NCBI GenBank assembly: GCA_012522755.1
Contig: JAAYJV010000015.1
Location: forward strand, 1-35,978
DNA length: 35,978 nt
Reading direction: 5' to 3'
DNA from: Candidatus Hydrogenedens sp.
GTDB taxonomy: Bacteria; Hydrogenedentota; Hydrogenedentia; Hydrogenedentales; CAITNO01
Shown here: positions 19,223-27,557 of the stretch, piece by piece
How positions within the stretch are numbered: the stretch's first letter is position 1
Layout: each line of letters starts with the position of its first letter
Translations under genes and position numbers: made by a program
Notes under the pieces: model-generated
The model's input: only the letters and a program-made list of their open reading frames with translations
Database searches by the model: none
Told to the model about the DNA's origin: nothing

Positions 19223-19903
19223 ATGAGTAAAGCCCAAGAAACCATTAAAAGCATTCCTGAACCGACGCTCAGAAGACTGCCGTCCTATTGTCAGGTATTG
19301 CTGGGTCTGGCGGAGCAGGAGCAGGAATATGTGTCGTGTACTCAGCTGGGTGACGCACTGCACATAGATCCCACGCTTATCCGCAAGGATCTGGCTCTGG
19401 CCGGAGCGACGGGCCGTCCGAAAGTCGGGTATGTGACCAAGGAACTTCACCAGCAGCTGGAGCATTTTCTGGGCTGGAACAATGCCCGTGATGCCGTTCT
19501 CATCGGTGCGGGGAGTCTGGGTTCGGCACTCATGGGTTACAAGGCTTTCGATCAATACGGCGTGAACATCGTGCTCGCCTTTGACCATGATCCCGACAAG
19601 ATCGGCAAAAAGATCCACGGAATTCCCGTCCTCCCCCTGACGCGTATGCCCAATTTGTTGGAGCGCATGAAAGTTCATCTGGGTATTCTCACGGTTCCGG
19701 CCGACGATGCCCAGTCCATCAGCGAGTTGATGGTGATGAACGGTATTCTCGCCATCTGGAATTTCGCGCCCATCGCTCTGAAAGTGCCGGAAGGGATCAT
19801 CGTCCAGAACGAGGATCTTTTCTCTTCCCTGGGAATTCTGTCGAGCAAGCTCGCGGCATTGCTGAAGAGAACGGAAACTGATCACGAGGAGGTTCTGACA
19901 TGA
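19223..19903 (+). CDS. rex: Redox-sensing transcriptional repressor Rex
   Basis: A 226-residue repressor that binds DNA when NADH/NAD+ is low and releases it when NADH binds. It has an N-terminal winged helix (IPEPTLRRLPSYCQVLLGL and the recognition segment DPTLIRKDLALAG), then a Rossmann domain with GAGSLG (95-100), the FDHDPDKIGKKIHGIPVLP turn, and the typical C-terminal block IWNFAPIALKVPEGIIVQNEDLF that forms the swapped helix. The ribosome-binding site TGGAG is ten bases upstream. It is the first gene of the hydrogenase operon and overlaps the next gene by four bases. As in many fermenters, it probably controls NADH-consuming genes, including its own operon and perhaps ldh. Confidence 0.93.
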   Translation: MSKAQETIKSIPEPTLRRLPSYCQVLLGLAEQEQEYVSCTQLGDALHIDPTLIRKDLALAGATGRPKVGYVTKELHQQLEHFLGWNNARDAVLIGAGSLGSALMGYKAFDQYGVNIVLAFDHDPDKIGKKIHGIPVLPLTRMPNLLERMKVHLGILTVPADDAQSISELMVMNGILAIWNFAPIALKVPEGIIVQNEDLFSSLGILSSKLAALLKRTETDHEEVLT

Positions 19904-20160
19904 GCACTGAAAAAAGCATTGTCATCTGTATGGGCAGTTCGTGTTTCGCCCGGGGCAACAAAAAGAATCTGGCTCTCATCGAGGATTTTCTTGAGACCCG
20001 CAATCTGAGCGCCTCAATCCGTCTTGAAGGAAGTCACTGTGCTTCCCAATGTCAGAGCGGGCCCAACATCCGCATTGACGGCACACTGTATCAATATGTG
20101 GATACAGGAATGCTTCTGGATATTCTGGAAAAACATTTCAGCGTGGCTGCAAAGGAATAA
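19900..20160 (+). CDS. Stand-alone [2Fe-2S] thioredoxin-like ferredoxin
   Basis: An 86-residue protein with the thioredoxin-like ferredoxin fold. Four cysteines, Cys10 and Cys15 (ICMGSSCFARG) and Cys47 and Cys51 (HCASQCQSGPN), are arranged as in the NuoE/HydC C-terminal domain and should bind one [2Fe-2S] cluster. It is shorter than HydC and lacks the N-terminal helical bundle of NuoE. The ATG overlaps the rex stop (ATGA), and the HydS gene begins three bases after its stop, so it is likely an electron donor or acceptor for the sensory hydrogenase. Similar small proteins occur beside HydS-like genes in clostridia. Confidence 0.85.
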   Translation: MSTEKSIVICMGSSCFARGNKKNLALIEDFLETRNLSASIRLEGSHCASQCQSGPNIRIDGTLYQYVDTGMLLDILEKHFSVAAKE

Positions 20161-25530: not shown

Positions 25531-27557
25531 ATAGCAATACAAAAGATACCGTAAAAGAGACACTTTTTGTCGATGGAAAAGAACTGCCCATCAATGGGGA
25601 ACGCAACGTGCTGGAGGTGGCTCGCAAAGCGGGTATTGACATCCCGACTTTCTGCTATCATTCGGAACTGAGCGTGTATGGCGCCTGTCGCCTTTGTCTT
25701 GTGGAGATTGAAGGCCGGGGCATTCAGGCCTCCTGTTCGGTTACACCGGAGCCGGGCATGCGCATCCGGACGAATACGAAGCAGGTTCGTGATATCCGCA
25801 AGATTTCACTGGAACTGATTCTGGCCAACCATGATCTCTCCTGCCCCACCTGTTCGCGCAGTGCCACCTGTCGCTTGCGTGAGCTTGCCGATCGCATGGG
25901 GATCAGCGACATACGTTACAAAGCCATTGAACAGAAAGCGCCTCTGGATCATTCGTCCCTCTCGCTGGTTCGGGATCCCAACAAATGCGTGCTCTGCGGT
26001 GACTGCGTCCGTGCCTGTGAGGAATTGCAGGGTGTGGGTGCCATAGACTTCGCTTTTCGCGGTGCCGACAGCGCTGTTCTCCCCGCCTTCAATCAGGATC
26101 TGGCTGAGGTGGAATGTGTCAACTGCGGGCTTTGCGCCACGGTCTGCCCCACCGGTGCGCTCACGCCCCGTTCGGAGATTGAAGAGGTCTGGGACGCACT
26201 GGATGATCCTGATAAAGTTGTGGTCGCTCAGATGGCACCGGCCGTGCGTGTGGGTCTGGGAGAATACTTCGGTATGGAGCCCGGGAGTGTCACGACGGGT
26301 CAGGCTGTATCCGCATTGAAAGCCATCGGATTTGATAAAGTCTTTGATACTTCTTTCACAGCGGACATGACAGTGCTGGAGGAAGGCGAAGAATTTCTGG
26401 ATCGTTTCCGGAATAACGGCGTCCTCCCTCTTTTCACCTCCTGCTGTCCCGCCTGGGTGAAGTATGCGGAACAGTACGGCCCTGATCTGCTGCCCCATCT
26501 GTCGAGCTGCAAATCGCCGCAACAGATGTTCGGAAGCGTCGCCCGCCGTGTGCTTCCCGGGATGATGGACCTCGAAGGTAAAGAGCTGGTCATTGTATCG
26601 GTCATGCCCTGTACGGCGAAGAAGTTTGAAGCGAAACAGGAAAAATTCATTCATGACGGTGTTCCCGAGGTGAACCATGTCATCACCACAGCCGAGCTGG
26701 GACTCATGCTCCGTCAGTGCGGTTTGCAATTGGCCAATCTTGAAGCGGCCTCCTTTGACATGCCTCTGGGATTCAAGACGGGCGCCGGTGTTCTTTTCGG
26801 CGTGACCGGCGGTGTCACGGAAGCCGTGCTTCGCTATGCCGTGGAAGAGGTGCAGGGTAAAGCACTGGAAAATGTGGATTTCCGCGAGGTCCGTGGTGAG
26901 CAGGGTTTGCGTGAAGCGACCGTTACCGTGGAAGGTGTGGCGCTTCGGCTGGCCATTGTGAACGGACTTGCCCAGGCGGCTCCGGTCATTGAAAGCATCC
27001 GCAAAGGCACCAGCCCCTATCATCTGGTTGAAGTCATGGCCTGTCCCGGTGGTTGTGTGGCCGGTGCCGGTCAGCCCCATACTTTCAATCCCGCAGCCCG
27101 TCAGCAACGTACCCAGGCCATTTATGACACGGACAAGACGCTGGACTTTCACAAATCGCAGGAGAATCCTGAACTGGCCAAATGCTATGCAGAACATTTT
27201 GACGGAGTAGGCGGAAAGACTGCTCATGAACTGCTGCACACGAACTATACCCACAGAAAACGACTTCATGAAGTGGATCTCGCTTTGCAGGAAGGCGAAA
27301 GTCAGGGGACCCTCCCTGTCCAGGTTTGTGTGGGCACCAACTGCTTCCTCAATGGTTCTCAGGAGCTTTTACGCAAGCTCATGGCCCATGTGGATCAGAA
27401 CGGCCTGAACGATCAGGTGAGCCTCACGGCGACCTTCTGCATGGAGAACTGCGGAAAGAGCCCCAATGTCCGCGTGGGGGATACCCATCTTGAAGCCTGT
27501 ACCTTTGAGAGCGCCTGTGCGGCACTGGACAAGCATCTGGGCTGTGTGCCCCGTTAA
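25527..27557 (+). CDS. hydA: [FeFe]-hydrogenase catalytic subunit HydA
   Basis: A 676-residue catalytic subunit that makes or oxidises H2. Cofactor chain in order: plant-type [2Fe-2S] (Cys43/54/57/70); His-ligated [4Fe-4S] (His102, Cys106/109/115); two [4Fe-4S] motifs (Cys154/157/160/164 and Cys197/200/203/207); an H-cluster domain with complete L1 FTSCCPAW (proton-relay Cys306, ligand Cys307), L2 VMPCTAKKFEAK (Cys362) and L3 VMACPGGCVAGAG (Cys506, Cys510); and a C-terminal thioredoxin-like [2Fe-2S] domain (Cys601/606/638/642), as in Thermotoga HydA. All catalytic positions are intact, unlike the HydS-like paralogue. With HydB and HydC it would couple H2 turnover to NADH, probably with ferredoxin. 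Maturases must be encoded elsewhere. Confidence 0.96.
   Translation: MNSNTKDTVKETLFVDGKELPINGERNVLEVARKAGIDIPTFCYHSELSVYGACRLCLVEIEGRGIQASCSVTPEPGMRIRTNTKQVRDIRKISLELILANHDLSCPTCSRSATCRLRELADRMGISDIRYKAIEQKAPLDHSSLSLVRDPNKCVLCGDCVRACEELQGVGAIDFAFRGADSAVLPAFNQDLAEVECVNCGLCATVCPTGALTPRSEIEEVWDALDDPDKVVVAQMAPAVRVGLGEYFGMEPGSVTTGQAVSALKAIGFDKVFDTSFTADMTVLEEGEEFLDRFRNNGVLPLFTSCCPAWVKYAEQYGPDLLPHLSSCKSPQQMFGSVARRVLPGMMDLEGKELVIVSVMPCTAKKFEAKQEKFIHDGVPEVNHVITTAELGLMLRQCGLQLANLEAASFDMPLGFKTGAGVLFGVTGGVTEAVLRYAVEEVQGKALENVDFREVRGEQGLREATVTVEGVALRLAIVNGLAQAAPVIESIRKGTSPYHLVEVMACPGGCVAGAGQPHTFNPAARQQRTQAIYDTDKTLDFHKSQENPELAKCYAEHFDGVGGKTAHELLHTNYTHRKRLHEVDLALQEGESQGTLPVQVCVGTNCFLNGSQELLRKLMAHVDQNGLNDQVSLTATFCMENCGKSPNVRVGDTHLEACTFESACAALDKHLGCVPR

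Follow-up and report, generated by a model that had tools for sequence, protein, structure and literature searches.

The DNA analysed here (hereafter the window) is a stretch of 35,978 nucleotides from Candidatus Hydrogenedens sp., phylum Hydrogenedentota; it is one whole contig (G000:C94) of a genome of 4.0 Mb, 199 contigs and 95% completeness. Seven same-strand genes spanning positions 19223 to 27557 encode, in this order, the regulator Rex, a [2Fe-2S] protein, the putative sensory [FeFe]-hydrogenase HydS, a PP2C phosphatase, and the hydrogenase subunits HydC, HydB and HydA. The genes are tightly packed: rex and the [2Fe-2S] gene, HydS and PP2C, and HydB and HydA overlap by 4 bases each, and HydC and HydB by 1 base, while gaps of 3 bases and 26 bases (counted from the ATG at 23111) lie between the [2Fe-2S] gene and HydS and between PP2C and HydC, respectively. 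An alternative HydC start, a GTG at 23075, lies in an open frame; apart from this GTG, every gene start is preceded by a purine-rich, ribosome-site-like stretch, as judged by eye. A pattern scan found no terminator-like site on the + strand from 19223 to 28057, and the internal + strand promoter-like sites at 22921 and 26367 (each 9/12) are at background level, the scanned region holding 5 such sites against 7.3 expected from shuffles. An earlier sequence-only reading had described seven genes in one direction, overlapping or 3 to 26 bases apart, and the coordinates and strand bear this out; the single operon that it proposed is likely, since one 12/12 promoter precedes the genes, and the internal terminators with separate promoters that would contradict it were not found by the pattern scan above shuffle level. 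We consider it probable that this is a self-regulated hydrogen-metabolism operon, controlled by Rex through predicted operator boxes at its promoter, with HydS and PP2C as a putative second, sensing arm.

Upstream of rex lies a sigma-70-type promoter (19110-19138, + strand), in which TTGACA and TATAAT are separated by 17 bases and all 12 consensus positions match. Three direct repeats with 14-bp phasing, TTCTCGATA, TTCTCGATA and TTCTTTATT (19149-19185, + strand), closely follow the -10 element. TCGA being self-complementary, paired TTCTCGATA units can be read as 18-mers of the form TCGA-K-A-W-N4-W-T-M-TCGA, which have the 7-4-7 geometry of Rex operators. One of these boxes, TCGATATATTTTTCTCGA (19152-19169, + strand), is perfect and is a conserved variant of the Rex operator with TCGA as its outer tetranucleotides; another, TAAAGAAAATCTTCTCGA (19138-19155, + strand), is degenerate, and its first base is the last base of the -10. 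The published Rex operator consensus, TTGTGAANNNNTTCACAA (PMC6391272), was not found near the promoter, where its best match is 9/14, and the variant of equal 7-4-7 geometry is present instead; this miss lowers the case for a canonical Rex box, not for the Rex family membership of the protein. In the whole genome, the TCGATATATTTTTCTCGA box is the only perfect match of TCGAKAWNNNNWTMTCGA, and two TTCTCGATA units at 14-bp spacing also occur perfectly only once; with up to 3 mismatches, such pairs number 38, versus 20 for a reversed control. The same genome has two more HydABC units, and a site of Rex geometry precedes each of the three. On contig C41 (L040), the paralogous rex-hydCBA unit, headed by a second rex, carries the TCGT-type box TCGTTATTTCTTTCACGA behind its own promoter, and the unit on C126 (L039), arranged in the B-A-C order of published sub-type III, has a half-canonical Rex box, TTGTGAAAAAAATAACGA, before hydB, upstream of the presumed promoter and not behind it.

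The boxes are conserved in the phylum together with a particular type of Rex. Rex proteins with the wing sequence GRPKVGY or GRPKIGY and a score above 220 bits to the window Rex, here called the RexA clade, occur in 15 of 68 phylum genomes, and the next best Rex scores 156 bits. A perfect box is present in 12 of the 15 upstream regions from these RexA genomes; 2000 dinucleotide shuffles gave a mean of 0.0005 regions with a perfect box and a maximum of 1, a figure that overstates independence because the regions are related. The best promoter match per region is 9 to 12 of 12 (15 regions, including that of the window) and, in regions with boxes, is next to them. Where rex is the first gene of the operon, the boxes follow the -10; where the [2Fe-2S] gene is first, boxes and -10 overlap. 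G005 and G010 have the box as an inverted repeat with the -10 at its centre, a layout that speaks for a dimeric DNA-binding protein rather than an RNA element. Repeats in the presumed leader might suggest an RNA leader element, but this is less likely, given that G005 and G010, and in part G051, show the half-sites in inverted order. Altogether, the 15 RexA genomes hold 20 perfect boxes, 17 of which are at this operon, the off-operon ones being at G009:C86, G011:C1312 and G053:C240. We also inspected titled loci, comprising the best 80 of at least 579 confirmed relatives in one scan. A site of at least 13/14 precedes 26 of the 80 operons, Hydrogenedentes L046 and L047 included, a count with no shuffle control behind it; the other 54 have none, in some cases because the contig ends there. 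With phyla read from the record titles, TCGA boxes stand before rex in L063 (Acidobacteriaceae) and L095 (Cloacimonadota), and before rex or the HydS operon in L108 (Marispirochaeta), L070 and L119 (Pontiellaceae/Pontiella), L053 (Lentisphaeria) and L058 (titled "uncultured bacterium"), and seven Bacteroidetes/Bacteroidales operons have TTGT-type boxes (L080, L084, L087, L089, L102, L109, and L117).

The Rex of the window (19223-19903, + strand; RexA clade, wing GRPKVGY) scores 282 bits with NCBIfam NF003994 (cut-off, 130), exceeds the cut-offs of PF06971 and PF02629, and has the GxGxxG nucleotide loop as GAGSLGSA in an alignment with the Rex crystal structures 3wg9 and 5zz5. In the Rex of Thermotoga maritima, the DNA-contact residues Arg48, Lys49, Arg60, and Gly61 are termed highly conserved, and in its DNA complex Arg60 and Gly61 touch Thy4 and Thy3 in the minor groove, which are half-site positions two and one (PMC8836258). 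Aligned to the Rex structures of the PDB, the window Rex keeps Arg48 and Lys49 and has Pro for Arg60 and Lys for Gly61; at operator half-site position two there is C here instead of T. We surveyed 80 Rex genes from several scans (best 30, 20, the C41 gene and best 30, with one of 81 dropped), seeking boxes within 300 bases upstream of rex and taking residue columns from the alignment. Upstream boxes were found for 16 of 47 [IV]RKD Rex proteins, and in one or both half-sites of each top-scoring box the fourth base is A, the box of L180 being weak and lopsided. Boxes were also found for 17 of 28 VRRD/VRQD proteins and for 1 of the 5 others, and in all of these the fourth base is T. In this set, all TCGA/TAGA promoter boxes go with [IV]RKD, and T[TC]GT/CTGT boxes go with VRRD or VTKD. 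RexA is also tied to the phosphatase of the operon: in the 60 genomes searched for PP2C (counted at E <1e-36; G044, with E 6e-4, counted as without), RexA is present in 15 of 16 with the gene and in 0 of 44 without, the exception being G004, whose contig starts inside HydS. Since rex lies on a different contig from the operon in 7 of the 15 RexA genomes, linkage alone is insufficient to account for this co-inheritance, and three of the seven (G007, G012, and G015) have a near-perfect box, TCGAGAAATAATTCTCTA (13/14), in front of the separate rex as well. We lean towards the view, judging from these sequence comparisons, that a Rex subfamily with switched specificity (TTGT to TCGA in the operator, GKRG to GRPK in the wing) serves as a dedicated local regulator in Hydrogenedentota, its overlapping 14-bp-phased boxes being all but confined to a single promoter in each genome, that of this operon; relatives with TCGA boxes at rex or the HydS operon occur in four or more further phyla (Spirochaetota, Acidobacteriota, Cloacimonadota, and Verrucomicrobiota). 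The two Rex clades and their operators form a natural pair for studying how the DNA specificity of a repressor changes.

The presumed target of this control is a HydABC hydrogenase. HydC (23111-23596, + strand; PF01257) is a NuoE-like [2Fe-2S] subunit, with a ribosome-site-like AGGAG before its ATG. HydB (23596-25530, + strand; PF01512, PF10589) is the reduced nicotinamide adenine dinucleotide (NADH)/flavin mononucleotide subunit, and its nearest PDB chains are 7t2r_B, 8a6t_B, and 7p5h_B. Bifurcating HydB proteins are marked, in T. maritima numbering, by Ala or Glu at 232, Met at 234, GGPSG at 427-431, and Phe at 367 (PMC7311640). The NADH-region and SLBB signatures are present here as A240 and M242 (GAFM) and GGPSG 441-445; for Phe367, T. 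maritima HydB itself has a Val at the given number in the alignment, so that this site is not placeable. Because of its GAFM and GGPSG signatures, HydABC is assigned as NADH- plus ferredoxin-linked, that is, predicted to be electron bifurcating; the description of the enzyme as NADH-linked was right about NADH and incomplete in omitting ferredoxin. HydA (25527-27557, + strand; PF02906, PF02256, PF01257), the catalytic subunit, shows the features given for sub-type IV (PMC11406978), namely Cys at the fifth P1 position (TSCCPAW), a C-terminal [2Fe-2S] domain (PF01257 at 592-668) and HydS upstream of HydC. It scores 736.7 bits with NCBIfam NF040763 (group A6 HydA), below the cut-off of 765.

HydS (20164-21909, + strand; PF02906, PF04060, PF13188) bears 4Fe-4S motifs at its N terminus, and a C-terminal Cx2Cx4Cx16C cluster motif at residues 374-399 is followed by a PAS domain (PF13188, over cut-off). 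Its motifs SSACPAT, GPCIAKK, and CEGGCIGG keep the cysteines that we take to be the H-cluster ligands, and SSACPAT has Ala where the proton-transfer Cys is expected. Sensory M2e/M2f [FeFe]-hydrogenases without this Cys are described, and HydS has the features reported for the sensory M2f (group C) enzymes (PMC8163306); by analogy with a published gene cluster (PMC11406978) it would belong to group C3. For HydS-type proteins, sensing of hydrogen (H2) and signal relay via PP2C are presented as proposed rather than proven (PMC6776011, PMC10055695, PMC5707799). It is a real possibility, though not the one we favour, that HydS senses the general redox state through the ferredoxin pool and not H2, so that the loop would have two redox inputs. 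The 4Fe-4S motifs, the extra cluster motif before the PAS domain and the lack of the proton-transfer Cys would suit such a sensor, and electrons could be fed to it by the product of the adjoining gene, a thioredoxin-like [2Fe-2S] protein of 86 residues (19900-20160, + strand; PF01257, 30 bits against a cut-off of 24.8). However, HydS keeps the H-cluster ligand cysteines, and the group D relative Tam HydS is described as turning over H2 reversibly (PMC8163306).

The second component of the putative sensing arm is a SpoIIE/RsbU-type PP2C phosphatase (21906-23084, + strand), which matches PF07228 with 50.7 bits against a cut-off of 25. Its model has a predicted local distance difference test (pLDDT) score of 87, and its fold matches 3pu9 (Z 24.8, 217 aligned residues, root mean square deviation [RMSD] 2.8); fold searches with the whole protein match the phosphatase domain almost exclusively. 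In an alignment of 51 sequences, collected with the whole protein as query and including that of the window, D25, D44, D221, and D222 are invariant; these are presumably the metal-site Asp residues of PP2C enzymes. All 51 sequences have an extra C-terminal domain of about 160 residues (about 230-392), which is modelled as Rossmann-like (pLDDT 86.6) and has invariant positions at the G and T of GGTT, the P, L.TEG, and N.A..D. Pfam gives this domain no name (one match, E 0.22), the PDB sequence search returned nothing better than E 0.22, and Foldseek nothing at E ≤0.001. With VIA-align, the best matches are NuoG of complex I (7awt_G; Z 10.3, 118 aligned, RMSD 3.0) and a chain of the FhcABCD complex (6s6y_F; Z 9.7, 115 aligned, RMSD 3.1), both too weak to name a function. 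As for possible parts of a phosphatase partner-switching system, the genome has one STAS protein (on C171), a candidate for a STAS-type substrate, four SpoIIE matches (three over cut-off, including this PP2C) and three HATPase_c_2 matches (one over cut-off), whose link to the operon would be hypothetical; the C-terminal domain of PP2C is one place to seek the missing signalling partner.

Several observations weigh against control of this promoter by Rex. The window box departs from TTGTGAANNNNTTCACAA at two of seven half-site positions (TCGA for TTGT), and the operons of L105 and L059 pair an [IV]RKD Rex with T at position 4; a residue-by-residue specificity rule, being broken by these two, was rejected, and the link between Rex residues and boxes holds as a clade-level pattern in the sequences compared. 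G002, G006, and G011 carry RexA but have no perfect box at their HydS-PP2C genes, and of the 78 titled operons other than L046 and L047, only 24 are preceded by a site of 13/14 or better. The background is also appreciable: the 53 of 68 genomes without RexA hold 26 matches, and the reversed-pattern control (0 in RexA genomes, 1 across all 68) is too lenient and understates it. With about 0.5 sites per genome lacking RexA, a lone box match means little, and the box argument rests on position and conservation, not on the pattern alone. In the window genome a looser box pattern, widened to admit the C41 site, finds 28 sites versus 18 for its control, and its independent evidence is the C126 site only, one of 26 one-mismatch sites. 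The TTCTCGATA boxes might instead be bound by another, unlinked transcription factor, perhaps the target of HydS-PP2C, with Rex exerting weak or no control. Such a factor would fit the departure from the consensus, the 14-bp direct-repeat phasing, which we judge unusual, and the retention of boxes in G005, G007, G010, G012, and G015, where rex is outside the operon. We consider it unlikely: those five genomes carry RexA on another contig, three of them with the 13/14 box before that rex, and the 7-4-7 geometry and the paralogous rex promoter fit Rex.

G001 and G003 also have the full seven-gene order contiguously, and G017 shows it until its contig ends at HydB; because it recurs in these genomes, the order is not due to chance or misassembly. 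(In G017, HydS is broken into two same-frame open reading frames [L029 1250-2992], from either a sequencing error or a real stop.) Elsewhere in the phylum the order is Rex-HydC-HydB-HydA-HydS-PP2C (G051 and G053), the operon lacks rex (G005, G007, G010, G012, and G015), or one contig carries rex with a frame that by eye resembles the [2Fe-2S] gene and another carries PP2C-HydCBA (G009). G002 has Rex-HydS-PP2C without HydABC, and G006 and G011 have HydS-PP2C; in these three the HydS-PP2C genes are divergent, and HydABC is not in the stretches seen. The comparison of gene order around HydS-like genes that the sequence-only reading had called for was run on the titled loci: PP2C adjoins HydS in all 80, and the [2Fe-2S] gene does so in 71. 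By contrast, rex is directly upstream in 6 of the 68 loci with at least 1 kb upstream; among the 65 with at least 1.5 kb downstream, HydC-HydB follows directly in 5 and a different [FeFe]-hydrogenase-like gene in 36. All seven genes in window order were found in one of the 80, the nearest titled relative in the scan, L046 (Candidatus Hydrogenedentes, 85% identity in the PP2C protein), which corresponds to the same-genus G001. Thus, rex within one operon with HydS, PP2C, and HydABC is the rarer arrangement. That the genes are a co-inherited cassette without mutual regulation, ordered as they were transferred, is very improbable: Bfu gene clusters are reported to be mobile among phyla (PMC11406978), but the order varies while membership is kept, as in G051 and G053, RexA accompanies PP2C even where rex is on another contig, and the promoter boxes are conserved. 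The three Marinifilum records L088, L090, and L092 each have two tandem HydS-PP2C pairs. A second HydS-like protein, a 763-residue open frame (G000:C161:8457-11305, L004; also L038), may be of the group C1 type known for the phylum; next to the C161 gene, a neighbouring frame gives a HATPase_c_2 match of 22.7 bits, below cut-off.

In the self-regulated operon that we favour, Rex made from the first gene would, at low NADH, bind the two to four overlapping boxes on or behind the -10 and block transcription; repression at low NADH is proposed because a protein bound at the boxes would stand in the way of RNA polymerase. Rex leaves DNA upon NADH binding (PMC8836258), and a rise in NADH would release it here and so raise the amounts of Rex itself, an autoregulation, and of HydABC, which would re-oxidise NADH. 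HydABC would then use NADH and reduced ferredoxin to form H2, and HydS and PP2C, made from the same transcript, would constitute a second arm, probably reporting H2 or redox state by dephosphorylating a target. The closed feedback loop of the sequence-only reading thereby gains Rex-geometry boxes behind the promoter for its NADH arm; none of the literature examined shows directly that HydS senses H2, and for the H2 arm we still infer it. A further caution comes from Caldicellulosiruptor bescii, in which gel shifts support the hydrogenase structural genes as Rex regulon members but deletion of rex barely altered the hyd transcript (log2 -0.13 to -0.38) (PMC6391272). The balance between H2 production and NADH retention is a central question in fermentation and syntrophy; from the boxes, Rex is predicted to have a single dedicated target in this uncultured phylum, and they tie NADH control to an H2-sensor operon.

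The transcription unit may extend beyond hydA. Genes for a cupin (27644-28009) and an iron-dependent alcohol dehydrogenase (28006-29106), both on the + strand, begin 86 bases after hydA and overlap each other by 4 bases; they adjoin hydA in the same-genus G001 too, and no match to either was found downstream of hydA in the stretches seen of G003 and G007. Ahead of the operon lies a 97-nucleotide inverted repeat (82%; 17857-17953 and 18953-19049), its copies about 1 kb apart. A 71-base piece of it has at least 41 matches in the genome (40 of 146 candidates scored), one of which precedes the C41 rex-hydCBA unit.

Zheng and Huang (2024) have published hydrogenases of this type, namely sub-type IV accompanied by a C3 sensor, for Hydrogenedentota (PMC11406978), and the window operon resembles their BfuABC with BfuT (C3) in phylum, in the T-C-B-A order, and in the fifth P1 Cys and C-terminal [2Fe-2S] domain of HydA; in the main text of that paper "rex" and "phosphatase" have 0 occurrences, and promoters are untreated in its parts examined. 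As the sequence-only reading had noted, parts of the order are known in clostridia and Thermotogae: sensory hydrogenase genes lie upstream of a trimeric bifurcating hydrogenase in T. maritima TM1420-TM1426 and Clostridium thermocellum Cthe_0425-0430 (PMC3561251). The hfsABCD cluster of Thermoanaerobacterium saccharolyticum, in which hfsB is a HydS homologue and deletions change product patterns (PMC5707799), is listed as encoding, among others, a "sporulation protein" and is preceded at -78 by the putative Rex site TTGTTAATAAATTAACTA (PMC5886521); unlike the window operon, hfsABCD as listed in these sources has no rex gene, and its predicted box is of the TTGT type. In Ruminococcus albus, a group C cluster with a PAS hydrogenase and a phosphatase subunit is regulated together with fermentation genes, and the data fit H2-linked regulation of such clusters; in place of HydABC, its neighbours as described are an alcohol/aldehyde dehydrogenase and the A1 hydrogenase, which uses ferredoxin only (PMC6776011). 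Because the hfsABCD Rex site and the sensor-hydrogenase clusters are already published, the coupling is less new than the sequence-only reading suggested, although rex in the same operon is rarer. The 18-bp palindromes that Rex binds in C. bescii and T. maritima lie before hydrogenase genes and before rex (PMC6391272, PMC8836258). The crystallised T. maritima operator already has one TTGA half-site, which means that an A as fourth base is no novelty on its own (PMC8836258). No report of a TCGA-type Rex box was found in the open-licence literature searched, as far as its accessible parts go, which is weak evidence of absence. Compared with the TTGTGAANNNNTTCACAA consensus of those species, the boxes described here have TCGA outer tetranucleotides and form phased arrays, with one perfect box in the whole genome of the window; Rex-hydrogenase coupling is itself already known, and what is new is the altered Rex box and the presence of rex inside the operon.

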